64,000 nt of DNA, taken from positions 9,178,001-9,242,000 of the forward strand of contig NC_088319.1 of assembly GCF_910592395.1 (NCBI RefSeq), given 5' to 3'. This DNA comes from Lineus longissimus. Its lineage: Eukaryota; Nemertea; Pilidiophora; Heteronemertea; Lineidae. Positions 7,243-23,897 of the stretch are shown piece after piece. The notes beneath the pieces were generated by a model. It was given only the letters and a program-made list of their open reading frames with translations. It was not told the DNA's origin and did not search any database. The position numbers and the translations under genes are program-made. Every line of letters starts with the position of its first letter. Position 1 is the first letter of the stretch.

Positions 7243-7479
7243 ATGGATACACCAGGAAAGAAAGATATCATAAATACACTGTATCAAAGTTTACTGTTGG
7301 CATCAACAACAATTGGTTACTCTATGTTACTGAAAAGGTTCTTGAGAATCAATATTGGTCCCCCAAGTCAGGCCAACCTAGAGGAAATTCTTAAACTGGG
7401 CGGAACTGTAGCTATTAGTAATGGAACATTAGAGTACCTTTACGATCAAGGAATCCTACCCAGAAATATTATGAAGTAA
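7243..7479 (+). CDS. Small Polinton protein of unknown function
   Basis: A 78-residue frame lies between the two capsid genes and starts in TAATTAAATGG, the strongest form of the shared start motif. One moderately hydrophobic helix is visible near residues 13-30 (LYQSLLLASTTIGYSMLL), followed by a basic turn and a mixed C-terminal half. I do not recognise the family. Its place in the morphogenesis block suggests a virion or assembly role, which is inference from position only. Confidence 0.7.
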   Translation: MDTPGKKDIINTLYQSLLLASTTIGYSMLLKRFLRINIGPPSQANLEEILKLGGTVAISNGTLEYLYDQGILPRNIMK

Positions 7480-7536
7480 GAATAATTTACTTATTTGATA
7501 AAAGGAAAATTTGAAAACGAAAATTTGCTTAAGTAA

Positions 7537-8304
7537 ATGGTTACTGTAATGAACATAGATTCAAGTGACTATCCAGATCAGAGTTCAAGTGATTTAACAG
7601 TCAATCTCAAGACTGAAATTCAAGATGCATGTAGCATCACTTTAACTTTTGCAGTAATACCTTGTACATTCTACAACATAAGTGCAGCCAGGGAGAATAA
7701 CCGAATCAAAGTTAAGGGGTTTGATGTGGCAGAGATTACGCTACCAGATGGTCTCTATGACCTACAGAGCTTTTCAAAAGTATTTGCGGATAAGTTGAAA
7801 GAAAATAGTATGAGTAGAGGTGCTGTCAGATTTGACCTTGAAGAACCAACAGGTAAGGCCATCTTACACTTCCTAAAGAGAAAAAATGAGGCGCATTATC
7901 AGATCTATTTTCTTGGTAAAAGTAATGAATTATTTGGCATGAAATCAGAATGGCCTTACCCTTTAGACAATAAAAGTAAGGATGATGTTGTAAGCGAGAA
8001 ACCCATCAATTTTAGACCAATTAACCATTTTGTTTTTCACTGTGACATAATCGAATCTAATAGTGTATTAAGTAATGGTGAAGCATCTGATGTGCTAACC
8101 ACAAGACCAATAAAGGAAGCTAATTTTGGGGATTTAATAGCATACACATTTGAGAAACCAATAGCAATTCCCTGTAAACCAAGATTCAATAAGCTGAATA
8201 TTCGCTTAACTGATGAAAAAGGTGACATCATCGATCTTAATGGTCATGATGTACAGTACCAATTGGTATTAACTCGAGCTATGCTCTCAGGGACACATCA
8301 TTGA
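7537..8304 (+). CDS. Polinton minor capsid (penton-like) protein
   Basis: This 255-residue beta-rich protein follows the major capsid gene and matches the single-jelly-roll minor capsid (penton) class by order and length. The N-terminus has the SSDYPDQSSSDLTVNLK pattern and the C-terminal strand reads KLNIRLTDEKGDIIDLNGHDVQYQLVL. That C-terminal strand pattern returns in the protein at 16828-17841. The last residues (RAMLSG plus THH) are encoded by a half-decayed double-hairpin repeat at 8276-8299, so the natural C-terminus appears to have been overwritten by the repeat. The start lies in TTAAGTAAATGG. Confidence 0.78.
   Translation: MVTVMNIDSSDYPDQSSSDLTVNLKTEIQDACSITLTFAVIPCTFYNISAARENNRIKVKGFDVAEITLPDGLYDLQSFSKVFADKLKENSMSRGAVRFDLEEPTGKAILHFLKRKNEAHYQIYFLGKSNELFGMKSEWPYPLDNKSKDDVVSEKPINFRPINHFVFHCDIIESNSVLSNGEASDVLTTRPIKEANFGDLIAYTFEKPIAIPCKPRFNKLNIRLTDEKGDIIDLNGHDVQYQLVLTRAMLSGTHH
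8276..8299 (+). repeat. Double-hairpin repeat, partial, at the 3' end of the minor capsid gene
   Basis: The GAGC-TAT-GCTC stem is complete at 8276-8286. The TCA spacer and the start of the GGAC stem follow but decay into GGGACACATC. It encodes the last residues of the minor capsid protein. Confidence 0.8.
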
Positions 8305-8326
8305 AATTAAAATTCGTTGAAATTAA

Positions 8327-8785
8327 ATGGCTGGCATTGGCATGTTATTTGGATCTGCAATAATCAATGGATTAGCATTCACTGGATCCGGTTACCTTTT
8401 TAAAAAACTAGACAAGAATGGCTATGAGATTGAAATTAGGAGACATAATTTAGCTCAAGAGCAATTGCAAAGAGCATCCACAGAATGGGATGAGCATAGG
8501 AAAAGTACCATTGACTTCGTTAACCTTGAATTAAAGAGAGAAAGAGATGCTTCTATTGATTTTAACAATACTGATTCAGCACTTACTGTTTACAATCATT
8601 TACATCCAGAAAGAACTATTGTACTACCTCAGCGACCACAATTAAGTGATTACTACCAACCTAGTGATGAAATGAAGAAATACGAGTACCTATGGATTAT
8701 CCTAGGACTTAGTGGTTTAGGGTTAATAATTTATTATTTTACTAGGGTTAGAAAGACTAAGACCATTGATCGGACACAGTCCTGA
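8327..8785 (+). CDS. Polinton membrane protein
   Basis: This 152-residue protein has a glycine-rich hydrophobic N-terminal segment (about residues 3-25), a charged helical middle (about 30-85) and a strong C-terminal membrane span (about 120-140, WIILGLSGLGLIIYYF) followed by a basic RVRKTK tail. The start is ATG in AAATTAAATGG, 22 bp after the minor capsid stop. The last codons and the TGA stop are supplied by a half double-hairpin repeat at 8772-8782. It could be a virion membrane or entry-related protein by position, but there is no family evidence for a specific role. Confidence 0.75.
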   Translation: MAGIGMLFGSAIINGLAFTGSGYLFKKLDKNGYEIEIRRHNLAQEQLQRASTEWDEHRKSTIDFVNLELKRERDASIDFNNTDSALTVYNHLHPERTIVLPQRPQLSDYYQPSDEMKKYEYLWIILGLSGLGLIIYYFTRVRKTKTIDRTQS

Positions 8786-8815
8786 TGATCGGACACAGTC
8801 CTGAGAGCATAGCTC
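8772..8815 (+). repeat. Double-hairpin repeats: one half unit and one full unit
   Basis: The half unit GGAC-ACA-GTCC is at 8772-8782. The full unit is GGAC-ACA-GTCC at 8791-8801, spacer TGA, then GAGC-ATA-GCTC at 8805-8815. The shared ACA loop shows that the two are sister copies. The TGA after the half unit is the stop codon of the membrane-protein gene. Confidence 0.9.
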
Positions 8816-8915
8816 AATCAGAAGCGGGACTAAGATTTTTGATGGGAAAGAGTAAATCCAAATGGATGTTGTAGTCTAATGATCAGTTTTGATCCTTTTT
8901 TCATCTTAAGTTCTT

Positions 8916-9422
8916 CTATGTAGTACTGTCTTTTAAGGCATCTTTCATGGCTGATTCATCCATATTAAAAAATAATACTAAAATTCTTATGTTCTCTCTG
9001 TAGTCCTTGACAACTGAATTGTACTTCTGAACTAGTAACCAAACAGTGAGATTGTAGTGCCTGCCGGAAAAGGCAAGATTACATAACTCGGACACCTTCT
9101 TTTTTGTGTCTCTCAAATTAGCACAGTCATCAATGAGGAATAATGTGTTAGAACCAGCAAAGGTCAGTGTAGCAAACTGAAGCACAAGGTCCAAATTACT
9201 GGCCACAGCTTCGGGATTAACTATGTAGACGTTCTTGTCTTGGTAAATCCATTTCCTTTCATATGTCTTATTGTTGAAATATGTTGGACAGAAAATGACT
9301 ATGTTCTGGAATTTGTGCCGATACTCCTTTTCTAAGAGGTCAAGGGCAAAATATGTCTTACCACAATTGGTAACACCAGAAATTAACATATTGTGTGGCT
9401 CGTAAATAAATACTTCACTCAT
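8916..9422 (-). CDS. Polinton packaging ATPase (FtsK/HerA-like)
   Basis: This 168-residue P-loop ATPase has Walker A GVTNCGKT at residues 16-23 and Walker B NTLFLIDD at about 92-99. The following SGRHYNLTVWLLVQKYN segment is typical of the Polinton/adenovirus-like genome packaging ATPases (A32 group). It is expected to pump genome DNA into capsids. The start codon lies 4 bp from the divergent integrase start (CATTTAAATG). This reverse gene sits between the forward capsid block and the forward integrase. The frame is intact, the length is at the short end for the family, and no double-hairpin repeat is present. Confidence 0.93.
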   Translation of the reverse strand: MSEVFIYEPHNMLISGVTNCGKTYFALDLLEKEYRHKFQNIVIFCPTYFNNKTYERKWIYQDKNVYIVNPEAVASNLDLVLQFATLTFAGSNTLFLIDDCANLRDTKKKVSELCNLAFSGRHYNLTVWLLVQKYNSVVKDYRENIRILVLFFNMDESAMKDALKDSTT

Positions 9423-9431
9423 TTAAATGAA
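9418..9431. promoter_or_regulatory. Shared divergent start region, CATTTAAATG palindrome
   Basis: The ATPase start (complement of 9420-9422) and the integrase start (9427-9429) are separated only by TTAA at 9423-9426. Both ATGs therefore sit in the TTAAATG-type start motif seen throughout the element, and one palindrome serves two genes. Confidence 0.7.
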
Positions 9432-10548
9432 TGTAAAGGATGACACACAGCAGTATCTAAGGGATTTGTACTACAACCCCGAGAGTCCCGTGGCTTACAG
9501 TTCTTTGAGTAAAATCTGGAAACAGGTCAAGGAAGATATGACTTCGTCACGAGAGCAGAGCTCAGGAAAACTTATTAAACAAAAAGAAGTGAAAGAATTT
9601 CTAGAAACACTACCAACTCACCAACTACACAAACCGGCCATTAAGAAATTCACCTTCAGGAAGACAATGGTATCGTACATCGATCAACAATGGCAAGCAG
9701 ATCTGGTTGACATGCAAAAATTCGAGAAACAAAATAAAGGCAAAAGATTCATTTTGACAGTCATAGATCTATTTAGTCGTTTTTCTTGGGCTCTAGCAGT
9801 TAAGAGTAAGAGGGGAGAAGAAATCAGAGATTCATTTAAAGTGATATTTGAGGAAGCAAAACCAACGAAAATCCAGTTTGATGACGGTAAAGAATTTTAC
9901 AACAAACACTTCAAGGAACTCTTAACAGAAAATGACATAGAATGGTTCTCCACAAAATCTGATAAGAAGGCAGCAGTAGTAGAGAGATTCAATAGAACCC
10001 TTAAAGAAAAAATGTGGCGTTATTTCACCGCTAAGGAGACTGACAAGTGGATTGACGTTCTGGATGACCTGGTCAGCGGCTACAATAACACATTTCACTC
10101 ATCAATAGGTATGAAACCTGTAGACGCCAGAAAGATGGAAAACGAAGGAACAGTGTGGTACAATCTTTACGGTCTTCACCTCAAAGAGACATTTGGTGAT
10201 CCAAAGTACAAAGTAGGTGACAGTGTAAGAATTTCAAAGTACAAGTCCATTTTCGGTAAAGGTTACATGCCCAACTACACTGAGGAGGTGTTCCAAATCA
10301 AACAGATCATCTTTACTCACCCTATCGTCTACCAGCTTGAGGATTACCACAAAGAAGAAATTCAAGGATATTTCTATGAAGAGGAATTGAGCTATGTTCC
10401 TAATCCTGACCAGCCAGAGTACAAGATCGAGAAAATCCTAAGGTACAAGACCAGTAAAGGCAAGAAATACGGATTAGTGAAGTGGAAGGGTTACAGTGAT
10501 AAGTTCAATGAATGGTTACCAGTTTCTGATATCAAATCATTGAAATGA
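9427..10548 (+). CDS. Polinton integrase (rve family) with C-terminal chromodomain
   Basis: This 373-residue retroviral-type integrase inserts the element's ends into target DNA. Catalytic residues are D92 (WQADLVDM), D153 (FDDGKEF) and E186 (VVERFNRTLK). A chromodomain follows at about residues 330-373 (YGLVKWKGYSDKFNEWLP), which usually directs integration toward modified chromatin. The flanking 6-bp duplication is the product expected of this enzyme class. Residues about 38-46 (DMTSSREQSSG) are encoded by a double-hairpin repeat at 9540-9563, inserted in frame ahead of the catalytic core. The start codon is ATG in TTTAAATGAATG. Confidence 0.97.
   Translation: MNVKDDTQQYLRDLYYNPESPVAYSSLSKIWKQVKEDMTSSREQSSGKLIKQKEVKEFLETLPTHQLHKPAIKKFTFRKTMVSYIDQQWQADLVDMQKFEKQNKGKRFILTVIDLFSRFSWALAVKSKRGEEIRDSFKVIFEEAKPTKIQFDDGKEFYNKHFKELLTENDIEWFSTKSDKKAAVVERFNRTLKEKMWRYFTAKETDKWIDVLDDLVSGYNNTFHSSIGMKPVDARKMENEGTVWYNLYGLHLKETFGDPKYKVGDSVRISKYKSIFGKGYMPNYTEEVFQIKQIIFTHPIVYQLEDYHKEEIQGYFYEEELSYVPNPDQPEYKIEKILRYKTSKGKKYGLVKWKGYSDKFNEWLPVSDIKSLK
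9540..9563 (+). repeat. Double-hairpin repeat inside the integrase gene
   Basis: The unit is GAC-TTC-GTC at 9540-9548, spacer ACGA, then GAGC-AGA-GCTC at 9553-9563. It is a 24-bp form with a shortened first stem. The usual TGA spacer is replaced, so this frame stays open. Confidence 0.9.
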
Positions 10549-10563
10549 AATAAAGTCTCTAAA

Positions 10564-10589
10564 GTGACTTAAGTCACAAGAACAAGTTC
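10564..10589. promoter_or_regulatory. Two adjacent palindromes between integrase and HNH-type gene
   Basis: GTGACTTAAGTCAC (10564-10577) is a perfect 14-bp palindrome, followed after AA by GAACAAGTTC (10580-10589). The layout of two small palindromes separated by a short spacer recalls the double-hairpin repeat, and the second matches its GAAC/GTTC stem. It may be a distant relative or a transcription-end signal. Confidence 0.4.
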
Positions 10590-10636
10590 GAAAAACGTAA
10601 TTTAAAAAAAAAATGTCCTACTAAATAAAGAAAGAA

Positions 10637-11746
10637 ATGGATGGAGCAATATTTGATAATCAAAATGGTATGATGAATCAAAATGGTATGATGAATCAGA
10701 ATAATATGATGAATCATGATAATATGATGAATCAAAATATTCAGAAGTTTTTGTATTATTTGCATCAAAATAATATGTTAAATCAAAATATGATAAATCA
10801 GATTATGTTAAATCAAAATATGATAAATCAGTTTATCTTAAATCAAAACATGGAAAATCAAAACATGGAAAATCAAAATATGGAAAATCAAAATATGATA
10901 AATCAACCTACAATTTATTGTGTTAAGTGCTGTGAAAAGAAACCTGAAATTAATTTTGAAAAGAACAGGCGTAATAAACTACTTGATTACTGTAAAGAAT
11001 GTGGTTCAAGTAAAATCAAGGGATGTAATAAATGTTATGAAAATAAATTACTAAGTGATGGTGAATTTGGTAAAGACGGAAATAGAGGTAACTGCAGATC
11101 ATGTTTTAATTCATATTACAAAAGGGATTACCTTGACCAAAATGGTAATAGAGACAGACACAAAATTAGAGTTGGTCTAAACCGCATTTCTAAGGGAGAG
11201 TGTACCGGTAATTCATCATTCAATCTAGGATGTACAGACAGTTTCTTCTCACAGTGGTTAGAGTACCAGAGGAGTCTATCTCCAATAGGACAAAGTCCCG
11301 AGAACAGAGTTCGAATAGTAGAAGAAGAGTTGGATCATGTCTTACCAATCAAGGAATTCAAAGATAAACCTGAACTGTGCTTTGCTTGGTTTAACATTAG
11401 ACCAATGGAAAAGACAGAAAACAGACAGAAGAGTGCTAAAGTAGACTACACACTATTTAAGGATCAATTGGATAGGTCAATGGATTTCATGGTAAAGATG
11501 AGAAGTGAAAACTGGTTTGTCTTTCGAGACCAGGATGTAATACCAGATTGGAAAATAGTGATATCACAGCATTTCGGGGATTATCTTCGTGATGAAAATA
11601 TGATTCTGCTTGATAGATTATCGAATTTAAATAATAACATGAGAATGAACCAGAACATTAACATATGTAGTCAGACAGAAATCATAAACGAGATGATTAA
11701 GTTGAATAATAGACTTGAAAGAAATTTACTCTTTGCAGTGAATTGA
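10637..11746 (+). CDS. Zinc-cysteine protein with HNH-like endonuclease motif
   Basis: This 369-residue protein has three parts. Residues 1-90 are a low-complexity Asn/Gln/Met run (MMNQNG, NMENQ) encoded by a 12-15 bp DNA repeat. Residues about 94-160 hold several CxxC pairs (CVKCCEKK, CKECG, CNKCYE, CRSCFN), suggesting one or two zinc-binding modules. Residues about 228-265 read EEELDHVLPIKEF then CFAWFNIRPMEKTEN, the DH...N pattern of HNH nucleases. A DNA nicking or resolution role is plausible but inferred. One full double-hairpin unit (11288-11312) lies in frame just before the HNH motif and encodes GQSPENRVR. Confidence 0.75.
   Translation: MDGAIFDNQNGMMNQNGMMNQNNMMNHDNMMNQNIQKFLYYLHQNNMLNQNMINQIMLNQNMINQFILNQNMENQNMENQNMENQNMINQPTIYCVKCCEKKPEINFEKNRRNKLLDYCKECGSSKIKGCNKCYENKLLSDGEFGKDGNRGNCRSCFNSYYKRDYLDQNGNRDRHKIRVGLNRISKGECTGNSSFNLGCTDSFFSQWLEYQRSLSPIGQSPENRVRIVEEELDHVLPIKEFKDKPELCFAWFNIRPMEKTENRQKSAKVDYTLFKDQLDRSMDFMVKMRSENWFVFRDQDVIPDWKIVISQHFGDYLRDENMILLDRLSNLNNNMRMNQNINICSQTEIINEMIKLNNRLERNLLFAVN
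10660..10910 (+). repeat. Coding minisatellite for the Asn/Gln/Met tract
   Basis: Short units around AATCAAAATATGAT(G)A repeat through the first 250 bp of the gene and give MMNQNGMMNQN- and NMENQ-type peptides. Unit length varies between 12 and 15 bp and always keeps frame. Confidence 0.8.
11288..11312 (+). repeat. Double-hairpin repeat inside the HNH-type gene
   Basis: GGAC-AAA-GTCC at 11288-11298, spacer CGA, GAAC-AGA-GTTC at 11302-11312. The second stem is the GAAC/GTTC variant with both arms changed. Confidence 0.92.
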
Positions 11747-11765
11747 TTTTATTTTACTTAATTAA

Positions 11766-12017
11766 ATGAATAGAACTTGGGGTTACACAAAACGACCACG
11801 TAATTGGAAAGAAAGATTAGAACGATTTCATAGAGAATTAGAGGCAGAAGTAGAGTCAAAGTTGGAGCCTGGTCCCGAAAAACCTTTAAAACCTGCTGTG
11901 CCTGCTGGGTCAGAAAAACCTTTAAAATTTAATGTACTTCAAAAACCTGTAGTGTATGTAGGATCAACACTAAACACTAGAAATGACAGAACAACTGATT
12001 CTAGTTATTCCCACTAA
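11766..12017 (+). CDS. Small basic/charged Polinton protein
   Basis: This 83-residue frame starts at ATG in TTAATTAAATGAA, directly after the HNH-type gene, and ends 4 bp before the next start. The N-terminal third is strongly basic (KRPRNWKERLERF). A repeated PEKPLK segment (PGPEKPLKPAVPAGSEKPLKF) follows. I do not recognise it. Strong start context and tight spacing on both sides support a real gene. Confidence 0.6.
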   Translation: MNRTWGYTKRPRNWKERLERFHRELEAEVESKLEPGPEKPLKPAVPAGSEKPLKFNVLQKPVVYVGSTLNTRNDRTTDSSYSH

Positions 12018-12021
12018 TTAA

Positions 12022-12681: not shown

Positions 12682-12695
12682 ATCAAACAGGACCC

Positions 12696-12749
12696 GGACT
12701 ACGTCCAGAGAACAAAGTTCGACTCGAGCTATGCTCTCAAGACGAAGTC
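12696..12749 (+). repeat. Double-hairpin pair, opposite orientations
   Basis: Unit 1 is GGAC-TAC-GTCC, AGA, GAAC-AAA-GTTC (12696-12720). Unit 2 is GAGC-TAT-GCTC, TCAA, GAC-GAA-GTC (12726-12749). The linker is 5 bp (GACTC). Confidence 0.92.
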
Positions 12750-12871
12750 GTACTAAATAGTCCTAATCCTAATGTGGTGTATCACTATCACTATTATCAT
12801 TACTTTGGTGTTAGGGGTGAATTTCACCAAGTAGCACTACCATCAGCACCACCCTATTCATTAGTTTAATC

Positions 12872-12942
12872 GAACTTTGTTCTCTGGACGTAGTCCTAAT
12901 CGAGCTCTGCTCTCAGGTCAAAGCTCGACTAGGACAAAGTCC
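12872..12942 (+). repeat. Double-hairpin triplet, partly decayed
   Basis: Unit 1 is GAAC-TTT-GTTC, TCT, GGAC-GTA-GTCC (12872-12896). Unit 2 starts at 12902 with an intact GAGC-TCT-GCTC stem, but its second stem is mutated to GGTCAAAGCTC. Unit 3 retains only GGAC-AAA-GTCC (12932-12942). Starts are exactly 30 bp apart. Confidence 0.85.
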
Positions 12943-12963
12943 GAATAATGATTTTTGCAACTC

Positions 12964-13047
12964 GAGCTATGCTCTCAAGACGAAGTCGGACTAGGACAAA
13001 GTCCAGAGAGCAAAGCTCGACTCGAGCTATGCTCTCAAGACGTAGTC
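12964..13047 (+). repeat. Double-hairpin triplet near the polymerase 3' end
   Basis: Units at 12964-12987 (GAGC-first), 12994-13018 (GGAC-first) and 13024-13047 (GAGC-first) have starts 30 bp apart. Loops are TAT/GAA, AAA/AAA and TAT/GTA. Confidence 0.92.
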
Positions 13048-13051
13048 GTAC

Positions 13052-16000
13052 TCAAGCGAAGTTTGAATCGCTGTAATCTATGTAGCCTTCATAATACATT
13101 CCAAATGGTAAGGTGCTTATTCCATCTTCAAGTATGAACCTCTTGTCATCAAAAGGACTGAGGCTTTTTTTGTCAACTTCTTCCAAATAGATTTGGTGTT
13201 TATCTGATCTTAAGTGTCTCATCTTGTGGTAAAATGACCTACTCTTTTCAAGACAATCAACATAGTCATCAAATGAGATATTTCTCCTTACTACATTCTT
13301 GGCAATACCCTTTAATTTCTTAGAATCGTAATCTTTTGTCGAGCCTTGCTCTCCAGACATAGTCTTGGTCCTGTAAGCGTACATCTTACTTCTCAGGGCA
13401 ATGAATTCAGTCATCTCTACTCCTCCTAGCTCATCCTTAAAGTAGCCTGGTACCTTCTTCTTACTGGTGTCATAGAGTGTATGATCTTTTGGATAATTAC
13501 TGAAGTCAAAATAGTGTTTCAACTCCTTTAAGTCTTTAGTTAAGTCATCAGTATTAATGTTAAGTACAAAGGAATCTGTATCTAGATACAGTAGTTCAAT
13601 ATTTTTCTCACCAAAGTACGGTTGAAGAACTTCATAATAGAATTCATACATTAATAATTTAGACAATTCAAGTACTGAAGCTCCTATGTAGATTGGTTTG
13701 TTGAATTTCATTGATGTTTTCCTCATGCTAATAGCAGCATTATGTTCGTCAAATACGCATATCGATGAAAACCTGGGATTGGCCATTACATTCCTGGCTC
13801 TCTCCCCGTCCGATACAAATTCAATTTCAACCCTGTTCCTTACATTCTCACAAGTCTTTCCGTAGAACGCATTATTCATGAGCTTAAAATAGTCTTTCTC
13901 AAAATCAGTCTTAGAATCCATACGTCTTTTAGTGTTAAAATCAATGTATGGTGCTAACCACTTTGATTGTTTAAAGCTTATCACTGAATGAACCCTCTTA
14001 AGTACCATTCCGTGCTTGAGGTAAAATTGTAGCATTCTGTAATGCACTATGTAATTAGTTTTATCCTTTTGTGTTAGTATTAGTTTCTCTACATTTGATC
14101 TTTTATCATCGCCCAGTAACTCTCTCTGGTAAGGACTTAATTCATCATCTTCAATAAAGAGAGATTCGGGACAGAATGGAAAGTTCCTTGACTTAAATTT
14201 AATATTTCCTGGATACTCCAAATCCACCTCTAAGAAATACCCTACCTCACTATCACTTGGAATTGCCATAATCTGCTCTTTACTGATAACATTCATGTTA
14301 AGTGGATCAATATCTATCATTTCAAAACTACCATAGGGTTGAGGTTCCATCATGGACCAGCCGTAGAGATTATTTGCGTCTACGTAGAGTAGTTTGTGGT
14401 GTTCATCTGCCTTGACATGTCTTGTTCCCATAACACCCGAAATTCCACCTCGTATTGCTTTCTCAAAAGTAAGTAAGATGTTGGTATCAGTCAGTAGTTC
14501 TAGGTTTATTCCTGTGTACTTCAAACCAGCTTGCCAGGTTAGGCCTGGTGCCGAGTAACAGTGACATGGATCTATCTGAAAGTAGTTCAAATTGACATCC
14601 CTGAATTTCTCAAATAAATCAGCTAAAAGGATCACATCAGTTTTGAGGTAGAGGTCAATGAACTCACCGTGATTCCTGATCTTGAAATGATCCCATATTA
14701 CCTTAGCCTCATCATAGGCAGAATCAGGTGCCATTTCATTTTTCAATTCGTCAAAAAACATAGACTTTTCTAGGTAAGTAACATTGTAGCTTTCATGTGA
14801 TGTGTAAAAAGAGTAAGGTACTGAACCCTTCTTCCTCAATAGCTTAAAGTCAGTGGTATTTGGGAACAGCTGTCTGGTAATTTTAAAATCATCATCCAAC
14901 ATTGATTTGGTTATGTTGTCTAAACTGGACTGCAGGAATCTGTACGAGTCCAAAAACCTGAAACAACCGAACTGAAATGAGATGTATTCCTCTGATGTTT
15001 TGGCAAGTATTTTCAGTTTCTTGTACTTCGGTAGCTTAGTCATTAATTCTTTAATAAATAAGTGAGAATCGTAATTACTGAGATTGTGAAAAAACACTGG
15101 AACAAACATAGCTTTCTTTTCATTCAAATTACACGAGTTGTGAGCAGCACCTCGATATCTACCACAGTAGTGATCATGATCCTTGACCTTGTCATATCCC
15201 AAAGGTTGATTACAATAGTAACAATGTGTTTCTAATTGATATTTATGCCAGTCTTCATCTGTCATTGTTAGAGGAAAGTTACAGTTCAATAAATTAGAGA
15301 ATTGTTCTTCCATCCTGATTAACCAATTACAGAACACATCTACAACATCAGCACCCCTGTGAGACACATACTGGCTACTGTAAAGGTGTGTGTAGTCTGA
15401 GTGAACATAAACACCAACAGCTGATGCATTTTGTTTAAAAAGTTTTTTAGTGGTAACAGTGGTATCTGTCTGAGTTGTGAGAGCAGAGCTCGAGTTATCA
15501 TTGACTGTTGTGCTTATCACTTCGAAATCAGCATAGATAACAAACGGAACTCTATTTTTGAATGAGTGTTTTTCAAATTTAATTTGTGACCATTTACTGT
15601 TAGGTGGAGGCAAAGTAATCTTACAGTAATCGTGTTCTCCACATTTCTTTTTATGTTTATCTAGTGTTGACTTCCTGTAAAAGTAATTCATGCATCTCCT
15701 GCAAAGATACACTCTATGAGTTAGTGTCCTGAAGAAAAGATTGATGTCTCTTATGTACATGAAATGGTCCTTGAAATACAACAGATCGATGACATCATCA
15801 TCATCATAATTCTTGGACAGGTAGAGAGGTTCTAGTTTTGCCTCACAGGTGCTCTTAGCCGATTCGTTCTCTAACTTGAACACATTAATTTTGAGATTAT
15901 TATCACTCTCTATCTTAGGGATATCCTTTTGAATACATACAGGAAATGATTTGATTTTGATATCAGTAGTTTTCGAACTCTGTTCTCGTGACGAAGTCAT

Positions 16001-16774
16001 TTGTAGCATATCGGTAGTAATATTTAATGTACTCTCGAGCTCTGCTCTCAGGACAAAGTCCGTCTCTGGATTTTCTTTCAGATATTTAGCGGCCAATAAA
16101 GACCAGAGAAAACATTTATTGTCATTTGATTCCACATTTATTACTGCTTTTGTTTTAAATGGTAATTTAGTGTAATGACCACCTTTACACCTCTTGTAAG
16201 AACAGATGGTCATGTTACAAGACTCTATTTTATTTAAAGTAAGTCCAGAACCTTGAAAGTACCTTTCCTCAATCTGTGTCTTAATGTAGTTTAACTGGTT
16301 GGTTATGGCATAAATTGCCTGGTTCCTTGAAATTATGCTTTCCATTGGAGACTGTATGGGGTGTGTTACACTTTCACCCTGACGATCAAACTGAGCAAAT
16401 ACTGATATGCTAATTTTGTGATGGTAATCATTGAGTTGAAATAATACCTCCTCTAATTTATCTCTGTATTCATACACCTGTTTAGCTTCTCTGTCAATCT
16501 TCAAACTAATGGTGATTACAGGCTTTCCAAATTGTTTTACTATTTCTATTCCACTCACTTTCTTTATGCCATCTAGCTCATTTTCCTCAAATGCAAGTTT
16601 CTTATCCATAGTTTTAGGGATCAGTGATGGGGCTCGGGGTTGAGCAATAGGGACATAATCCGGATTTAATTTACTTAAGTGACCTTTGGTTCTCCTGTGA
16701 ATAGCCATATTATTGTAGGATATGTACTTGTCACATGTAGTGCAAAGTATTTTCTGATTCTTATCAGTCATTCT
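13052..16774 (-). CDS. Protein-primed family B DNA polymerase
   Basis: This ~1240-residue polymerase replicates linear Polinton DNA from a protein primer. It opens with a C2H2-like finger (CTTCDKYISYNNMAIH). It carries Exo I VIYADFEVIS at about residue 411 and an endonuclease-VII-like CYYC...HDHYCGRYRGAAHNSC zinc segment at about 517-549. Exo II follows as FFHNLSNYDSHLFI, then Motif A YVDANNLYGWSM (~795), Motif B KLMNNAFYGKTCEN (~965) and Motif C LLYLDTDSF (~1061). I chose ATG 16774 (AATAGAATGAC context); the frame stays open upstream but has no ATG there. Double-hairpin repeats at 13341, 15975 and 16037, and a half unit at 15481, add short in-frame peptides (MSGEQGST, SSREQSS, DFVLRAELE) away from the catalytic motifs. 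Confidence 0.98.
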   Translation of the reverse strand, partial: RMTDKNQKILCTTCDKYISYNNMAIHRRTKGHLSKLNPDYVPIAQPRAPSLIPKTMDKKLAFEENELDGIKKVSGIEIVKQFGKPVITISLKIDREAKQVYEYRDKLEEVLFQLNDYHHKISISVFAQFDRQGESVTHPIQSPMESIISRNQAIYAITNQLNYIKTQIEERYFQGSGLTLNKIESCNMTICSYKRCKGGHYTKLPFKTKAVINVESNDNKCFLWSLLAAKYLKENPETDFVLRAELESTLNITTDMLQMTSSREQSSKTTDIKIKSFPVCIQKDIPKIESDNNLKINVFKLENESAKSTCEAKLEPLYLSKNYDDDDVIDLLYFKDHFMYIRDINLFFRTLTHRVYLCRRCMNYFYRKSTLDKHKKKCGEHDYCKITLPPPNSKWSQIKFEKHSFKNRVPFVIYADFEVISTTVNDNSSSALTTQTDTTVTTKKLFKQNASAVGVYVHSDYTHLYSSQYVSHRGADVVDVFCNWLIRMEEQFSNLLNCNFPLTMTDEDWHKYQLETHCYYCNQPLGYDKVKDHDHYCGRYRGAAHNSCNLNEKKAMFVPVFFHNLSNYDSHLFIKELMTKLPKYKKLKILAKTSEEYISFQFGCFRFLDSYRFLQSSLDNITKSMLDDDFKITRQLFPNTTDFKLLRKKGSVPYSFYTSHESYNVTYLEKSMFFDELKNEMAPDSAYDEAKVIWDHFKIRNHGEFIDLYLKTDVILLADLFEKFRDVNLNYFQIDPCHCYSAPGLTWQAGLKYTGINLELLTDTNILLTFEKAIRGGISGVMGTRHVKADEHHKLLYVDANNLYGWSMMEPQPYGSFEMIDIDPLNMNVISKEQIMAIPSDSEVGYFLEVDLEYPGNIKFKSRNFPFCPESLFIEDDELSPYQRELLGDDKRSNVEKLILTQKDKTNYIVHYRMLQFYLKHGMVLKRVHSVISFKQSKWLAPYIDFNTKRRMDSKTDFEKDYFKLMNNAFYGKTCENVRNRVEIEFVSDGERARNVMANPRFSSICVFDEHNAAISMRKTSMKFNKPIYIGASVLELSKLLMYEFYYEVLQPYFGEKNIELLYLDTDSFVLNINTDDLTKDLKELKHYFDFSNYPKDHTLYDTSKKKVPGYFKDELGGVEMTEFIALRSKMYAYRTKTMSGEQGSTKDYDSKKLKGIAKNVVRRNISFDDYVDCLEKSRSFYHKMRHLRSDKHQIYLEEVDKKSLSPFDDKRFILEDGISTLPFGMYYEGYIDYSDSNFA
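13341..13364 (+). repeat. Double-hairpin repeat in the polymerase gene (C-terminal region)
   Basis: GAGC-CTT-GCTC at 13341-13351, spacer TCCA, GAC-ATA-GTC at 13356-13364. On the coding (minus) strand it contributes MSGEQGST. Confidence 0.88.
15481..15491 (+). repeat. Half double-hairpin repeat in the polymerase gene
   Basis: Only the GAGC-AGA-GCTC stem remains. The place of the other stem (GTCTGAGTTGTGA) is decayed. It is read as SSSALT on the minus strand. Confidence 0.65.
15975..16061 (+). repeat. Two double-hairpin repeats in the polymerase N-terminal region
   Basis: 15975-15998 is GAAC-TCT-GTTC, TCGT, GAC-GAA-GTC. 16037-16061 is GAGC-TCT-GCTC, TCA, GGAC-AAA-GTCC. Both are in frame in the polymerase, encoding TSSREQSS and DFVLRAELE, and lie before the Exo I motif. 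Confidence 0.92.
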
Positions 16775-16827
16775 ATTTATTAGATTAAAATTTATTAAAT
16801 TCAATAAATCTCTTGAATTAAATAGAA

Positions 16828-17841
16828 ATGGACTTCATAATCAATGAACAAGAATGTAATGAAGCCAAATTTGAGTACTACTTAACAGACCAATTAGACA
16901 TAAAATCCATTACTTTGAAATCGATAACCTTTTACAATTCATGGTGGACAGGTGATTTTCTACCAGAGGGAGTCAGGATTTTCTCATTTCTAGTCGAAAT
17001 AACCAGAATTACAACACATGAGCCCTTAGATAAACAATTATGGTGTAGGACATTATTTGCTCCTGGACTTGAAACAGATACACTTGAAAAGGAAGTCATG
17101 AAAATTTGCGAACGGCATTTGGAAAATGAATCTACCACAACTAAAGACACCATTACTCAATACACATTTCCATACTCTCGACATTTTAGTTTAAGTGAGT
17201 TTTGTGAGGTATGGCAAAAATACATAAAAGAAATTGGAATTAGCCATGTGAAAATTTACTGTGATAACAATAATTACATAACCCTTGAACTTACAGAGGA
17301 TAAAGAGTACCCTCTGAAAGTAGACAAGTTAGATAAAAATGAAAAAATCAAGATTGAGAGAAACACAGAAGGTTTTCAAATAAGCAAAACCATAAGAGAG
17401 GTGATAGAAAAACAGCTCACAGTGGTGAATGAGTGGTTTGGCTTTAAGCAAACTAAATTCACCAAGAAAGGAAAATACTACTCCACAAGACCACTCAACT
17501 TTTACAGGAAATATCTATTCCTGCAAGCTAATTTGGTTGACAAAGCTAAGACCCTCTACAACAATAAACCATCTAACATTTTCTGCATCATACCTGTAGA
17601 AGATGGTGACCAAATAAAAATGCAGCGATACGAACCGAATTGTAAGAAAACGATAAATAAGTGTACTAATCACATAAAATTCGAAATCACTGATGAGAAT
17701 GGTAAGCTAGTTAATTTCAGAGGAACAGAGGTTTCTTTAGAGTTAAGAATCGAGCTTTGCTCTCTGGCCTTTGTCCTAGACGGACTTCGTCCTGAGAGCT
17801 CTGCTCGACCACCTGATGAGATCATTCCATTAAAGGAATAG
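16828..17841 (+). CDS. Second minor-capsid-like (penton-like) Polinton protein
   Basis: This 337-residue beta-rich protein ends its conserved part with HIKFEITDENGKLVNFRGTE, matching the C-terminal strand pattern of the minor capsid protein at 7537-8304 (KLNIRLTDEKGDIIDLNG). This suggests a related single-jelly-roll protein such as a spike or alternative vertex subunit; that is inference. The start is ATG in AATAGAAATGG, the same context as the major capsid gene. The last ~35 residues come from two tandem double-hairpin repeats (17752-17806; ELCSLAFVL, GLRPESSAR). The 3' end overlaps the convergent gene at 17822 by 20 bp. Confidence 0.75.
   Translation: MDFIINEQECNEAKFEYYLTDQLDIKSITLKSITFYNSWWTGDFLPEGVRIFSFLVEITRITTHEPLDKQLWCRTLFAPGLETDTLEKEVMKICERHLENESTTTKDTITQYTFPYSRHFSLSEFCEVWQKYIKEIGISHVKIYCDNNNYITLELTEDKEYPLKVDKLDKNEKIKIERNTEGFQISKTIREVIEKQLTVVNEWFGFKQTKFTKKGKYYSTRPLNFYRKYLFLQANLVDKAKTLYNNKPSNIFCIIPVEDGDQIKMQRYEPNCKKTINKCTNHIKFEITDENGKLVNFRGTEVSLELRIELCSLAFVLDGLRPESSARPPDEIIPLKE
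17752..17806 (+). repeat. Double-hairpin pair encoding a protein tail
   Basis: Unit 1 is GAGC-TTT-GCTC, TCT, GGCC-TTT-GTCC with one stem mismatch (17752-17776). Unit 2 is GGAC-TTC-GTCC, TGA, GAGC-TCT-GCTC (17782-17806). The pitch is 30 bp. Both are translated in the 3' end of the second minor-capsid-like gene. Confidence 0.9.
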
Positions 17842-18388
17842 TACATTTCTTCTCTTTAACTACAGGTTTAACAAGAGGGCTAATTGATCCCTTCATGACT
17901 GCTTCATTCGGACTTTGTCCAGAGAACAAAGTTCGATTAGGACTTTGTCCTGAGAGCATAGCTCGATTCAAGCCTGATCGCTGCTCTTTACTTACTTTTT
18001 TAGGAAGTTTCTTAAACATAATGAATGCTGCTAAAATAACGGCACCTAAACCTAGTACATAGACATAGGTATTACTACTAGATTCACGCAGTGATACATC
18101 GGTATTTTGAGATTGTGGTTCTTCTTCCTCTACTTCTTCTTCCTCCTTTTCCACAACTCTGTTTTTTGGTGAGGAGTCCTGTACTTTAAATGTCGTCTTA
18201 TCCTTTTTTATCCTCTTAAATTCCTTAGATCTTCTACCCAGTTCTCTAGACCATGCTAATTGTTTCTCTGATCGAGGTTTCTTAGACACTGAAACTTTAG
18301 TCGAACTTTGTTCTCTGGACGTAGTCCTAGTCGGACTTTGTCCTGAGAGCATATCTCGAGTAGTATCAGTTACAGTTTCAAGTTCCAT
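17822..18388 (-). CDS. Polinton single-span membrane protein, basic and acidic tracts
   Basis: This 188-residue protein has a Ser/Thr/Arg-rich N-terminus, a Lys/Arg-rich segment (about 36-66), an acidic run EEEEVEEEE (about 81-89), a membrane span (about 107-124, VYVLGLGAVILAAFIMF) and a basic tail. Four full double-hairpin units are translated within it: 18303 and 18333 near the N-terminus (MLSGQSPT, TSREQSST), and 17910 and 17940 near the C-terminus (RAMLSGQSPN, TLFSGQSPN). Repeat sequence therefore makes up about a fifth of the protein. Function is unknown. The start is ATG in GATAAATGG. Confidence 0.7.
   Translation of the reverse strand: MELETVTDTTRDMLSGQSPTRTTSREQSSTKVSVSKKPRSEKQLAWSRELGRRSKEFKRIKKDKTTFKVQDSSPKNRVVEKEEEEVEEEEPQSQNTDVSLRESSSNTYVYVLGLGAVILAAFIMFKKLPKKVSKEQRSGLNRAMLSGQSPNRTLFSGQSPNEAVMKGSISPLVKPVVKEKKCTIPLME
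17910..17964 (+). repeat. Double-hairpin tandem pair, same orientation
   Basis: 17910-17934 is GGAC-TTT-GTCC, AGA, GAAC-AAA-GTTC. 17940-17964 is GGAC-TTT-GTCC, TGA, GAGC-ATA-GCTC. They are 30 bp apart. Confidence 0.92.
18303..18357 (+). repeat. Double-hairpin pair, opposite orientations
   Basis: 18303-18327 is GAAC-TTT-GTTC, TCT, GGAC-GTA-GTCC. 18333-18357 is GGAC-TTT-GTCC, TGA, GAGC-ATA-TCTC with one stem mismatch. They are 30 bp apart. Confidence 0.9.
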
Positions 18389-18409
18389 TTATCTTGCTCA
18401 AATTAATTC

Positions 18410-18423
18410 GAACTATGTTCTCA
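18410..18423 (+). repeat. Half double-hairpin repeat between genes
   Basis: GAAC-TAT-GTTC (18410-18420) plus TCA remain. The partner stem is lost. It lies between the stop at 18437 and the start at 18388 of two minus-strand genes. Confidence 0.75.
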
Positions 18424-18436
18424 TAACCAGGTTAAT

Positions 18437-19258
18437 TTAGTCTTCTTTATCATAACTACCTGTGATATCTAGACTTTCATCTATTGGTTTGTCACATTCA
18501 GAGACAGTCATATTTGGTGTATTCATATTTGATGCAGTCATACTCGATGTATTCATAGATGATTCCTCATGACAATGACCTAAAGTAATAAGTGTTGTTG
18601 AAGCAAGTGCAGTTAATGGACCCATTCTCAAACTCAACCATCCAAGCCATTTATCCAACTCGTTAGTTATCAAATAATCATTTCTAAGATCATGATAAAG
18701 ATTATCTTCATCATCTATTGGTAATAACCACCTTGATAATTTAGTGTAAGCTTTAATTACTGTCTTACCCAAAGAATCATTAAGTCTGGCAGCCATCTTT
18801 GTTTCATACATTCTATGATGTTTTAAGATTTCTTTTTCAGTCATATTATCTAAGTCATTAAAAGTTATTTGTTTATTAAGGAAATCCTTGCTTTTACCAG
18901 TTGCAACTAGAATCTCTAAGTCTTGTTTGGCTTTAAGACCACTATCAGTCAAATAGTTCAAATTTTGTTGATTGCTGGTTGATCCTAGTTGGCAACTAGA
19001 ATTGACTATTCCTTGACTGGGATTAACTATTCCTTGACTAGGATTAACTAAATTTGAACTATTCAACTGCTTGTTTGAAACTTGTCGATTTGTAGAGCAG
19101 TTCTGTTGAAAGTTAGTTCTGTTTTGTTGGTAACTACCAGTGTTCTGTTGGTTAGAAGCCCCAACTCGAGCTAAGCTCTCAGGACTCATAACACCAATCT
19201 GTTTCATCTGTTGTTCAATCACTGCAGATGTCTGACTATTCATTTGCTGATTATTCAT
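18437..19258 (-). CDS. Polinton protein with Asn/Gln-rich N-terminus, unknown function
   Basis: This 273-residue protein has an Asn/Gln/Ser-rich first 100 residues containing a tandem VNPSQGI repeat. A charged helical middle follows (about 105-185), then a Trp-containing segment SRWLLPIDDEDNLYHDL, and a hydrophobic LGWLSLRMGPLTALASTTLI stretch (about 207-226) that could be membrane-associated. A Met/Asn/Thr-rich tail ends it. A partial double-hairpin repeat (19168-19190) contributes MSPESLARVG near the N-terminus. I do not recognise a family. The start codon is ATG in TTTTAAATGAA. Confidence 0.68.
   Translation of the reverse strand: MNNQQMNSQTSAVIEQQMKQIGVMSPESLARVGASNQQNTGSYQQNRTNFQQNCSTNRQVSNKQLNSSNLVNPSQGIVNPSQGIVNSSCQLGSTSNQQNLNYLTDSGLKAKQDLEILVATGKSKDFLNKQITFNDLDNMTEKEILKHHRMYETKMAARLNDSLGKTVIKAYTKLSRWLLPIDDEDNLYHDLRNDYLITNELDKWLGWLSLRMGPLTALASTTLITLGHCHEESSMNTSSMTASNMNTPNMTVSECDKPIDESLDITGSYDKED
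19168..19190 (+). repeat. Partial double-hairpin repeat in a coding region
   Basis: GAGC-TAA-GCTC (19168-19178), TCA, then GGACTCATAA where the second stem has decayed. It is in frame in the Asn/Gln-rich protein. Confidence 0.75.
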
Positions 19259-19309
19259 TTAAAATTATGGAAAAATGACTGTTAAGTGCAAAATGCTGTT
19301 TTCACAACT

Positions 19310-20476
19310 TTATTGCATCTTAACACTAGCTCGAGCTATGCTCTCAGGACGAAGTCCGGCTCGAGCTATGCTCTCAGGACGAAGTCCGGCTGGTGTAAAC
19401 TTAATACTACTGATGCAGTTAATGTCTCGACCTGCACTGGCACTCAGTAAAACGTCAAACTGCTTGTCAATATCCTGGTCATATTCCTTCTCAACCTTGT
19501 AATTCTGGAAGAAAATACTTTGAGTGAAATCATACCATAATCTCTCCAAATCATTTACTCGCTCCTTGTTGGTTAAAAAAGGTGTAAATATTACATAATC
19601 AATTTTCAGCGTTTTAAAGGCTTGGTGTAAAAATACCTTGTAGTTAATGGTGACCTTCACACCACAGTAATGCAGAAATCTAAGGAAAGCATAGCACACT
19701 AGTCTAAGGTCAGTGATATTCTCATCGGTTAATTGCGGTTTACCAATTGCCCTGTTAATAAATTCAATGGCAAGAAACCAATCATATTCCCCACAGTGAA
19801 ATTTAAAAAGCATGGCTTCACCATGTAACCCTTGGTTACAAAACTTAGAGGGGAGAGTGTTAATACCCATTTTTAGGGCTGACTGAAGAGTACTTTCATA
19901 TCTCTGCTTACTAAGACATTTTCTGTGACTTGAAAAGTAGCACTGTAAATACCCTTCCACAAAGTCCTTTAAATACTTAACTGCCGATTCGGACAGCCGA
20001 CTCCATCCAAGTTTCCTTAGAATACTGTAAAAGTAACGTGTCTTGTTGTCAATATTGATCTCAAGAGTTTTAAAATCATCGTCGTAAGTAGTCGAATTGC
20101 AATTGGTGCAGAATTGATACTTCACAGTTTTAGCTGCGTACCTTGCTGAATTCAAGTTTTTTTGATACTCAAAAAGTGTCCACCTTTTACAATTACGGCA
20201 GAATTGAGCATTAGTGTTGGTACTGACGTCATATTCTTTCATTCTTGGCAGGACTACTTTGCCTGTCTCAGTCGAGCAGAGCTCTCGGGACTTTGTCCTA
20301 GTCAGACTTCGTCCTGAGAGCTCTGCTCGAGTCGAGCTTTGCTCTCTGGACTTTGTCCTAGTCGGACTTCGTCTTGAGAGCATAGCTCGATCCATAACCC
20401 TAGGACGAAGGAATCCAGTAAGATTTTCATTGCTACATTTACTAAAATAGTCTTTTAATGAGATGTATTTATTCAT
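19310..20476 (-). CDS. Zinc-ribbon-like helical Polinton protein
   Basis: This 388-residue protein has two CxxC pairs (CRNCKRW at about residue 93 and CTNCNST at about 123), spaced like a zinc ribbon. A mostly helical region follows with the cysteine-rich segment SALKMGINTLPSKFCNQG. The layout of an N-terminal zinc ribbon plus a helical core recalls TFIIB-like transcription factors of large DNA viruses, but I see no decisive motif. Four double-hairpin units (20274-20388) encode residues about 30-68 as ten-residue steps (RAMLSRRSPT, RTKSREQSST and relatives). Two more (19333, 19363) encode the C-terminal tail (AGLRPESIAR twice). Confidence 0.7.
   Translation of the reverse strand: MNKYISLKDYFSKCSNENLTGFLRPRVMDRAMLSRRSPTRTKSREQSSTRAELSGRSLTRTKSRELCSTETGKVVLPRMKEYDVSTNTNAQFCRNCKRWTLFEYQKNLNSARYAAKTVKYQFCTNCNSTTYDDDFKTLEINIDNKTRYFYSILRKLGWSRLSESAVKYLKDFVEGYLQCYFSSHRKCLSKQRYESTLQSALKMGINTLPSKFCNQGLHGEAMLFKFHCGEYDWFLAIEFINRAIGKPQLTDENITDLRLVCYAFLRFLHYCGVKVTINYKVFLHQAFKTLKIDYVIFTPFLTNKERVNDLERLWYDFTQSIFFQNYKVEKEYDQDIDKQFDVLLSASAGRDINCISSIKFTPAGLRPESIARAGLRPESIARASVKMQ
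19333..19387 (+). repeat. Two identical tandem double-hairpin repeats
   Basis: Units at 19333-19357 and 19363-19387 are both GAGC-TAT-GCTC, TCA, GGAC-GAA-GTCC. Repeat and linker together are an exact 30-bp direct duplication, the clearest sign of recent tandem copying. Confidence 0.95.
20274..20388 (+). repeat. Four double-hairpin repeats in alternating orientation
   Basis: Starts at 20274, 20304, 20334 and 20364 are exactly 30 bp apart, with orientation alternating GAGC-first, GGAC-first, GAGC-first, GGAC-first. Linkers are TAGTC, GAGTC and TAGTC. Units 20304 and 20364 each have one mismatch in the GGAC stem. The array is translated near the N-terminus of the zinc-ribbon-like protein. Confidence 0.95.
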
Positions 20477-20533
20477 ATTTACATAATAATTATTTTTTAA
20501 ACATTGTTTTGATAGAAGGTCACCTAAGACCTT

Positions 20534-22174: not shown

Positions 22175-22184
22175 AATTACTTAT

Positions 22185-23576
22185 TTATCTAACCATAAAA
22201 ACAATCAATGTACCAACAACTGAGTAAAGCATGAATTTAATTGTTTCATGAGTATCATCCACCTTCTCAACTTTGGTGTCAAGTTTAGTAGTAGTAGGAG
22301 TATTCTTTGAGGTTTCAGTTGTTTTTGGTGTATCAACATTACTCTTTGGTTTATGACTGGTCTCGAGCTTTGCTCTCAGGACGAAGTCCGTCTTGACAGT
22401 ACCAACGCTACTCTTAACTCTTATTTTCTTAGAACTATTTCCTTCCATCAGTGGTGGTGGTAAGGTCTTTTTGTGGTTAATGTCATTCTTACCGGGTTTA
22501 GCATTTTTTGGTGCTATTAAAATGTTATTATTGTAGTTATCCAGCTTACCAATAACGAGTACCATATTTGATCCTATGACATACAATCCTGGTGCTATTA
22601 CATAATCTAGTCTTGTATGAGTGTCACTCACTGCTTTTTGGTATCTTTGAATTGAAGTGGGAATATCAGGATGTTGATTAATCGAGTCCTTTAATAGTTT
22701 GTTAAATTCCTTCTGTGCATCCAATTCTGTACCCGGTACTCCAATTATTGGTGTTCTGGTCAACGCCTGAGCACCCAGAATACAGTAAACATATGTTCTT
22801 ATTGTATCATTCAACCTCTCTATTCCAGGATTAGAGAAACCATTTGATTTAAATATCATGAATTGTTGATAGGTTTGACATTCATTTTGTGTAATTACAT
22901 CAAATACATTCTTGTGTCTCCTGACATGATCCTTGATGAAAATATCTGGATATTTGAAATTAGCCATTCCAGCATCCCAGTCTTTACTGAACATCGGTGG
23001 CATTCTATTTTCATGAACTTGCATGAGGAAGAAATTGATTTTAGAATCATTGATGTAATATCCGGGATCAGTAATGTTCGGGTTGTAATCCGGTACACTC
23101 CATGACCTCCAACCACCGTTATTTTCAAACACCGAGAAATCGTACTCGTCTTTTAAACCAAATTCACTCAATAACCCTCCTAGTTTCCTACGGTTAATGT
23201 TATTGTTTGTCTCATTAAAATCACTTTCACCTGGAATTGGTATCTCTAGATTCTTCATGATCTTCAATATTTGATAGTAAACATGAAACCTGTAAATTGA
23301 CCTTAACAATGGGTCACTGTGATTCAAGTGATCGTCTATTGAAATACCACAACCTGTTGTAGCAAACCAAACAGCCATGTTAAATTGGTTCTGATAAAAC
23401 GATAATGGATTCTTTTCCAGTCGCAGACAGTCTTTCTTATTTTTCAGGCTCAAAAACCCAGGTGTTATCTTAGTTTCTTGTAGGCGGAAGAAGTTATTAG
23501 TATTAACAGTTACTTCTAAATTAAAGAAGTCATAGGTGAATTTACTTTTATGTTGATTTGCTATTGGATAATACAT
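22185..23576 (-). CDS. Polinton protein with C-terminal membrane anchor, unknown function
   Basis: This 463-residue protein has a conserved-looking N-terminal domain (FYQNQFNMAVWFATTGCGIS at about residues 60-80) that I associate with uncharacterised proteins of invertebrate Polintons. A Ser/Thr/Lys-rich linker (about 365-440) and a C-terminal membrane span (FMLYSVVGTLIVFMV) follow. It is the last gene before the right end and reads inward. A full double-hairpin repeat (22365-22389) lies in the linker and encodes DFVLRAKLE. I considered the protease slot but saw no His-Asp/Glu-Cys adenain pattern. The start is ATG in AAATTAAATG. Confidence 0.75.
   Translation of the reverse strand: MYYPIANQHKSKFTYDFFNLEVTVNTNNFFRLQETKITPGFLSLKNKKDCLRLEKNPLSFYQNQFNMAVWFATTGCGISIDDHLNHSDPLLRSIYRFHVYYQILKIMKNLEIPIPGESDFNETNNNINRRKLGGLLSEFGLKDEYDFSVFENNGGWRSWSVPDYNPNITDPGYYINDSKINFFLMQVHENRMPPMFSKDWDAGMANFKYPDIFIKDHVRRHKNVFDVITQNECQTYQQFMIFKSNGFSNPGIERLNDTIRTYVYCILGAQALTRTPIIGVPGTELDAQKEFNKLLKDSINQHPDIPTSIQRYQKAVSDTHTRLDYVIAPGLYVIGSNMVLVIGKLDNYNNNILIAPKNAKPGKNDINHKKTLPPPLMEGNSSKKIRVKSSVGTVKTDFVLRAKLETSHKPKSNVDTPKTTETSKNTPTTTKLDTKVEKVDDTHETIKFMLYSVVGTLIVFMVR
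22365..22389 (+). repeat. Double-hairpin repeat in the membrane-anchored protein gene
   Basis: GAGC-TTT-GCTC at 22365-22375, spacer TCA, GGAC-GAA-GTCC at 22379-22389. It is the rightmost copy found. Confidence 0.93.
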
Positions 23577-23639
23577 TTAATTTACTTGAATTTTTTCCTT
23601 GAATTTTGGTTAATGAGGCAGTAAAAAGGCCATTTATTT

Positions 23640-23891: not shown

Positions 23892-23897
23892 AACATT
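23892..23897. repeat. Target-site duplication AACATT (right copy)
   Basis: Identical to 5562-5567. It directly follows the terminal ...ATATTCT of the Polinton. Confidence 0.95.

Follow-up and report, generated by a model that had tools for sequence, protein, structure and literature searches.

A 27-bp double-hairpin repeat inside a Polinton, probably a non-autonomous insertion element

Introduction

Is a family of short double-hairpin repeats lying within a Polinton a mobile element, or is it an array of sites that the Polinton itself uses? The question is raised by a 64,000-nucleotide stretch of Lineus longissimus contig NC_088319.1 (positions 9,178,001 to 9,242,000; hereafter the window), in which an 18,324-bp Polinton at 5568-23891 contains many copies of such a repeat. 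The original prediction counted about 25 complete and about seven partial units, and offered two readings, a tiny parasite or a functional site array. In the analysis described here the units look like insertions rather than a fixed site array, and on the evidence of the sequence they are probably copies of a 27-bp, non-autonomous, nuclear double-hairpin insertion element multiplying inside Polinton DNA. This reading is favoured because of 3-bp duplications at the edges of the units, unrelated array copies that share a triplet, the use of six reading frames and the absence of copies from polymerase homologues; the parasitic alternative of the prediction gains from the same observations. To our knowledge, the mobile hairpin repeats of mitochondria and Rickettsia have been discussed for decades without their mechanism being known. 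A compact carrier with its own polymerase and integrase, together with defined edges, target triplets and a landing rule, would thus be a small system in which to test that mechanism.

The unit and its distribution

The inferred element is 27 bp long and reads N-GGAC-NNN-GTCC-NGA-GARC-NNN-GYTC-G. A covariance model, run with filters off, gave 30 double-hairpin units in the Polinton, all at 8274-22391 and at 28.3-46.5 bits, scores that are not independent since the model was built from those same 30 sequences. Lower scores went to the partial unit 8770 (14.1 bits) and the half unit 12930 (10.7 bits), as well as to antisense shadows and chance matches, while in the 45.7 kb of the window that flank the Polinton the best score was only 8.0 bits. 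The family is therefore real, its 30 units and two partial ones come close to the number predicted, and the claim that none occur in the flank of the window is borne out. Hairpins with a 3-nt loop are similarly distributed, with 18 of the GGAC and 22 of the GAGC type in the Polinton (expectation 0.06 each), seven of the GAAC type (expectation 0.2) and none of the three types in the window flanks; three hairpins whose loops are 2 or 4 nt long are found outside the Polinton, at 3321, 30773 and 33743. Scanned with a 23-position consensus, the window reached 15 or more matches at 31 places within 8274-22363 and at a single place elsewhere (63723, 16/23), compared with about 0.27 places per 18.3 kb in first-order Markov simulations (n=30). 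Chance or base composition as the source of the units is ruled out by the hairpin expectations, the simulations and the covariance scan. Rfam gave no match at its gathering thresholds.

The order of the parts is constant, with the GGAC half followed by NGA and then by the GAGC half. The predicted design of GGAC and GAGC stems thus stands, with a spacer of 3 nt; the longer spacers that appear in a list of exact pattern matches come from adjacent units. Mean identity to the commonest base is 0.90 and 0.93 in the two stems and lower, 0.62 and 0.70, in the loops. Stem pairing is kept in 93.1% of cells, and two-sided stem changes occupy 12 cells against 3.0 in shuffled data (0/500). Two of the five covariation measures fail to exceed the shuffles, namely the pairs with any two-sided change (3 vs 1.9; 108/500) and the further pair types (7 vs 7.2), and all such counts may be inflated by the relatedness of the sequences. 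Folded as single-stranded DNA, five of six tested units adopted the drawn structure, at -3.4 to -4.5 kcal/mol, with a z score below -2 in one only.

The GGAC half is unrecognisable, and the GAGC half intact, in three of the 30 units: 8274..8302 (minus strand, at the end of the open reading frame (ORF) 7537-8304), 15465..15493 (plus strand, in a length-variable part of the polymerase gene) and 19166..19194 (minus strand, in ORF 18437-19258). Such units could be incomplete copies if the family moved by way of RNA, the route proposed for the double-hairpin elements of Allomyces. The two partial units, 8770..8788 and 12930..12944 (both plus strand, the latter a GGAC hairpin only), retain the GGAC half instead, which also speaks against reading the other three as 5' truncations; loss of a half may be decay, and no reverse transcriptase was seen among the annotated ORFs of the Polinton; an RNA route is accordingly improbable.

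Edges, flanking triplets and arrays

To find the edges, the bases on either side of each single unit or array were compared with one another at every nearby offset; the three units that lack the GGAC half were excluded from flank scoring, which left 27. Own flank pairs beat shuffled pairs in the 15 arrays and single units (0/1000 shuffles), in the 27 units (0/2000) and in the eight isolated units (17/2000). With a 27-bp element and a 3-bp duplication, an exact 3-bp direct repeat stands at both ends of 17/27 scorable copies, compared with 2.8% of random Polinton intervals; at the outer ends 7/16 repeats are exact (1.06 in shuffled data) and 34/48 bases are equal (21.1 in shuffled data), these counts being taken at the chosen geometry and uncorrected for that choice. 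A 26-bp core with a 4-bp duplication was the first fit and was replaced by 27+3, which is preferred because it fits a spacing that is independent of orientation. Read in the direction of the element, the left-hand triplet begins with A in 23/27 units.

Among the eight isolated units, exact repeats flank 11287..11313 (plus strand, in ORF 10637-11746; AAT/AAT), 16036..16062 (minus strand, in the polymerase gene; TCT/TCT) and 22364..22390 (minus strand, in ORF 22185-23576; TCT/TCT). The others are 8790..8816 (plus strand), whose flanks GAT/ATC form no direct repeat; 9538..9564 (plus strand, stem TGAC/GTCA), in the integrase ORF, where the flanking repeat is absent; 13340..13366 (minus strand, stem AGAC/GTCT; flanks TGT/GGT) and 15974..16000 (minus strand, stem TGAC/GTCA; flanks TTT/TTG), both in the polymerase gene; and 18409..18435 (minus strand, stem TAAC/GTTA; flanks ATT/TTT), which is intergenic.

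The remaining units form eight arrays, which as wholes have no strand, and in all 11 neighbouring pairs the distance from start to start is 30 bp regardless of orientation. Since 27+3=30, the proposed geometry explains both this exact tandem spacing and the preserved reading frame. Two units each are found at 12695..12751 (+,-; triplets ACC,ACT,ACT), 12871..12927 (-,-; AAT,AAT,ACT), 17751..17807 (-,+; in ORF 16828-17841; AAT,AGA,ACC, with no repeat), 17909..17965 (+,+) and 18302..18358 (-,+), both in ORF 17822-18388 with ATT and AGT, respectively, three times, and 19332..19388 (-,-; at the 3' end of ORF 19310-20476; GCT three times). Three units lie at 12963..13049 (-,+,-; ACT four times) and four at 20273..20389 (-,+,-,+; in ORF 19310-20476; AGT four times, then ATC). 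Adjacent triplets are equal in 14/19 cases against 2.8 by shuffling, and all triplets are identical in five arrays. Array neighbours are 0.766 identical, compared with 0.775 across all pairs of units; tandem duplication as the origin of the arrays was therefore rejected, with one copied block excepted, because neighbours are no likelier to be alike than random pairs. As neighbours are unrelated and yet share triplets, most arrays would not be duplications, and new units would have been added at a triplet that already bordered an older unit. The copied block consists of three units at 12962-13052 and 20300-20390, which are inverted copies over 91 nt (91%). Identical 26-mers also occur in different arrays.

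In the strongest rival no dedicated enzyme is needed. Template switching, by the polymerase of the Polinton or during host repair, would take place at a microhomology, namely the triplet; one unit would be copied from elsewhere before a switch back, and the triplet at its flank would be the microhomology used rather than the trace of a staggered cut. Hairpins provoke template switching, and triplets common within arrays, copied blocks of several units and the integrase copy that has no duplication are all in keeping with it. On the other hand, copies of the same subfamily adjoin different triplets, as does the 26-mer common to 12694, 12870 and 18301 (oriented triplets ACC/ACT, ATT and ACT, respectively), and the exact 27-bp edges of isolated copies would demand a precise switch every time. 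We regard template switching as rather unlikely.

Units inside genes

The units occur in both orientations, in spacers as well as in genes. Nine ORFs (at least eight had been predicted) contain 21/30 of them, and the other nine units fall between genes, even though about 92% of the span belongs to ORFs. Every one of the six frames occurs, on both strands, and the frame stays open. In the frame that would read the common spacer TGA as a stop, 6/6 units carry A, C or G instead of T, while in the other frames T is kept in 18/24 units and replaced in 6/24 (Fisher P 0.0016). Taken together with the use of all frames, this base change indicates that tolerance depends on the frame staying open and not on a particular peptide. 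Because 27 and 30 are both divisible by 3, genes would remain open and insertions could survive in tolerant parts of proteins. A repeat at the protein level, that is, a peptide module spread through proteins, would account for the many open units within ORFs; the use of six frames on both strands and the intergenic copies led us to reject it, and we give it practically no weight.

Homologues and related loci

For the protein-primed family B DNA polymerase (PolB) of the Polinton (13052..16804, minus strand) 794 homologues were obtained, of which 120 were listed and 17 aligned. Where the unit 13340..13366 lies, PolB has 20 residues and 16/16 covering aligned homologues have 10-11, so that the unit amounts to 10 extra residues; around the 16036 and 15974 units it has 43 residues, compared with 21-27 in 13/13. 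These three PolB copies are, at the level of the aligned sequences, extra residues absent from every covering aligned homologue. In the region of the 15465 unit the lengths of homologues are too variable for judgement. Regular expressions for unit peptides matched nothing in the first 120 listed PolB homologues.

The integrase (9427..10548, plus strand; rve and chromo domains by Pfam) was compared with 27 aligned of 120 listed homologues. Its linker, which contains the 9538 unit, has 15 residues, compared with 6 in 15/26 covering homologues and 7-23 in the other 11/26, which implies that this linker often takes insertions. In a structure model the copy falls in a coil that connects two helices (mean predicted local distance difference test score, pLDDT, 68). 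A Lineus longissimus integrase (LOC135500132) 76% identical to that of the window has a 21-residue linker with a nine-residue match to a unit frame, which is not the frame of the window's copy; the score of the match was reached by 2/3000 shuffles over the 27 linkers. Judged from the protein, this integrase appears to carry a unit copy in another frame, and we consider this likely. When whole proteins were scanned for unit-like peptides (240 homologues), the Lineus protein tied with a chance-like match elsewhere in another protein (P0166), and 1/4800 shuffled proteins scored as high, so that the claim is founded on the linker test. A partial integrase 94% identical to the window's (P0121) is filed under Bartonella sp. 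CL29QHWL, probably through animal contamination of that assembly. It begins at the linker, where its residues fit the short form, yet the site itself is uncovered.

The unit family was absent from the relatives found by the PolB scan (two viral loci and five loci in prokaryote bins, with polymerase identity of 26-39%), while scans with the capsid candidate and the integrase gave no related locus, and no homologue of ORF 19310-20476 was scored. Exact-pattern scans of IMG/VR with two full-unit forms returned 0 and 0, and a half-unit pattern matched nine contigs, once each and at most at 21 bits. The proposed check with a covariance model thus confirmed confinement to the Polinton within the window and found no units at seven distant related loci; confinement to Polintons was judged only against these loci and the 45.7-kb flank. 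Other repeats, unrelated in sequence to the units, were noted on two contigs. A distant Polinton-like viral contig (L002) carries a dispersed palindromic repeat of the TATAGC-AAA-GCGTATA type at 2370, 2811, 2830, 4599 and 5446, and the other (L001) ends in tandem repeats of 58 bp that form strong GC hairpins, at 15339-15588.

An array of sites that serve the Polinton in packaging, replication, recombination or regulation would agree with many copies, conserved stems and covarying pairs over 14 kb. It is disfavoured by the polymerase copies missing from homologues, by the spread over nine ORFs in all frames and by the target-like duplications, as well as by the lack of units at the seven more distant loci, and we hold this second alternative of the original prediction to be very improbable.

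Possible mechanism and points against it

According to the insertion reading, each event would add 27 bp and, in the majority of scorable copies, a 3-bp duplication of a target triplet, usually A-initial. A nuclease may make cuts 3 nt apart across the triplet; the unit, as a folded single strand or an excised duplex, would then be joined in, and fill-in would yield the duplication. New copies would often settle at a triplet that already borders an older copy, in one orientation or the other, giving arrays with 30-bp phasing, and multi-unit blocks are copied as well. During strand-displacement replication the hairpins would become exposed in single-stranded form.

One candidate nuclease is an endonuclease VII-like HNH motif at PolB residues 525-572 (Pfam 20.1 bits, below the 23.6 cut-off; PHROG E 6e-5), in which C528, C531, H543, H545, R551, C558 and N559 are invariant among 18 aligned sequences. 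The endonuclease VII family cuts cruciforms and branched DNA. The same Pfam label is found on many of the listed PolB homologues, and since the motif occurs in homologues without known units it is a candidate and not proof. The other candidate is ORF 10637-11746, whose later part is, by eye, a possible HNH protein; a structure model of part of it was unusable (pLDDT 41). At the start of this ORF, 10637-10940 consists of tandem 15- and 18-nt coding repeats rich in NQN.

Several observations weigh against an insertion element. The hairpins are weak, a single tested unit being clearly better than its shuffles. An exact repeat is lacking in 10/27 scorable copies, four of which match at 0-1 of the three bases, and three further units, those without the GGAC half, are unscorable for flanks. 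Duplication lengths of 2-4 bp fit almost equally, so that the choice of 3 leans also on the 30-bp phasing. The arrays are not all independent, two of them having a copied block in common. At the DNA level no empty allele came to light, the length of the integrase linker varies anyway, and the endonuclease VII motif is present also in homologues not shown to carry units.

In a bolder and tentative form, which we think possible rather than probable, the unit would be a 27-bp hyperparasite, a selfish double hairpin that inhabits Polintons in two or more animal hosts. The structure-specific nuclease-polymerase of the Polinton would cut and join it, its own flanking triplet would serve as landing site, and its length would spare the frame. 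If so, it would rank with the smallest elements for which a target duplication is known. The insertion reading by itself would already place the unit among the smallest mobile DNA elements known, add a further tier of selfish DNA within a virus-like element, and offer viral proteins a route to gain inserts of 9-10 residues.

Relation to known hairpin repeats

The predicted parallel to double-hairpin elements of fungal mitochondria and to Rickettsia palindromic elements holds, for the two hairpins in the first case and for the in-frame copies within ORFs in the second. The nearest counterparts are these fungal elements and the GC clusters of yeast mitochondria. The elements of Allomyces, like the mitochondrial hairpin elements of sponges, consist of two adjacent short-loop hairpins and show variable copy number, compensatory changes and copying of multi-unit blocks (PMC2800124). 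The Allomyces elements are reported without flanking duplications (PMC2800124), and they are mitochondrial, whereas here 17/27 copies have exact 3-bp repeats at their flanks and the carrier is a Polinton.

Rickettsia palindromic elements are 100-150 bp long and inserted in frame. Their presence inside genes, noted in PMC2635572, has its counterpart in the 21/30 units within ORFs; unlike the 27-bp units of this animal Polinton, they are bacterial and larger.

The GC clusters of yeast, such as GC42, are likewise palindromic with short direct repeats at their ends. Weiller et al. in 1989 are said to have explained tandem arrays of GC clusters by insertion beside older copies. The terminal repeats of the clusters are AG or ACT (PMC4478555). 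Compared by description, GC clusters are mitochondrial and, in the example known best, about 42 nt long, whereas the units here are 27 bp, lie in a nuclear virus-like transposon and are often in-frame coding. The unit family thus behaves like GC clusters, with a new carrier and a smaller size.

Miniature inverted-repeat transposable elements (MITEs), for which the submariner MITEs of Pandoravirus serve as an example of small non-autonomous elements with target duplications in a DNA virus (PMC5799277), are similar in being small, non-autonomous and flanked by duplications. They differ in their terminal inverted repeats, since the ends of the unit, N-GGAC and GYTC-G, are not complementary, and the unit is only 27 bp. 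PARCEL, a 25-residue protein motif from palindromic DNA in ORFs of mobile elements (PMC2996958), shares the location of palindromic DNA in such ORFs; it is one conserved protein motif, while the units use all six frames and have no conserved peptide. Among openly licensed papers in PubMed Central (PMC), no description of such hairpin repeats in Polintons was found, in agreement with the prediction.

The carrier and its surroundings

The Polinton is bounded by a 6-bp target-site duplication, AACATT, at 5562..5567 on the left and 23892..23897 on the right, and has terminal inverted repeats that are imperfect and about 215-250 bp long, its termini reading AGAATATATG...; no strand was assigned to these features. 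Its PolB, rve integrase and A32-like ATPase were assigned by Pfam. Protein-primed PolB, integrase, ATPase, inverted repeats and the 6-bp duplication thus all identify it as a Polinton, while the Pfam match of the capsid candidate is weak and below the cut-off. Further ORFs are without assignment.

The host segment is animal genome, with one exon that matches exosome component 10 (EXOSC10-like). The carrier adjoins this exon, so that the mitochondrial location of Allomyces-type elements does not apply here. One host ORF is seemingly split by the Polinton (4211-5566 and 23861-24702, minus strand), and farther out than this ORF lies a 75% inverted repeat (3700-4132 and 24827-25265). A decayed fragment of a second Polinton polymerase, at 27219-28136 on the minus strand, shares 64-78% amino-acid and 79-86% nucleotide identity with the intact PolB, which shows that related Polintons have been present in the host; no hairpin unit lies within the fragment. 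Finally, an ORF at 31430-32023 (minus strand) resembles, by eye, the reverse transcriptase end of a non-LTR (long terminal repeat) element.
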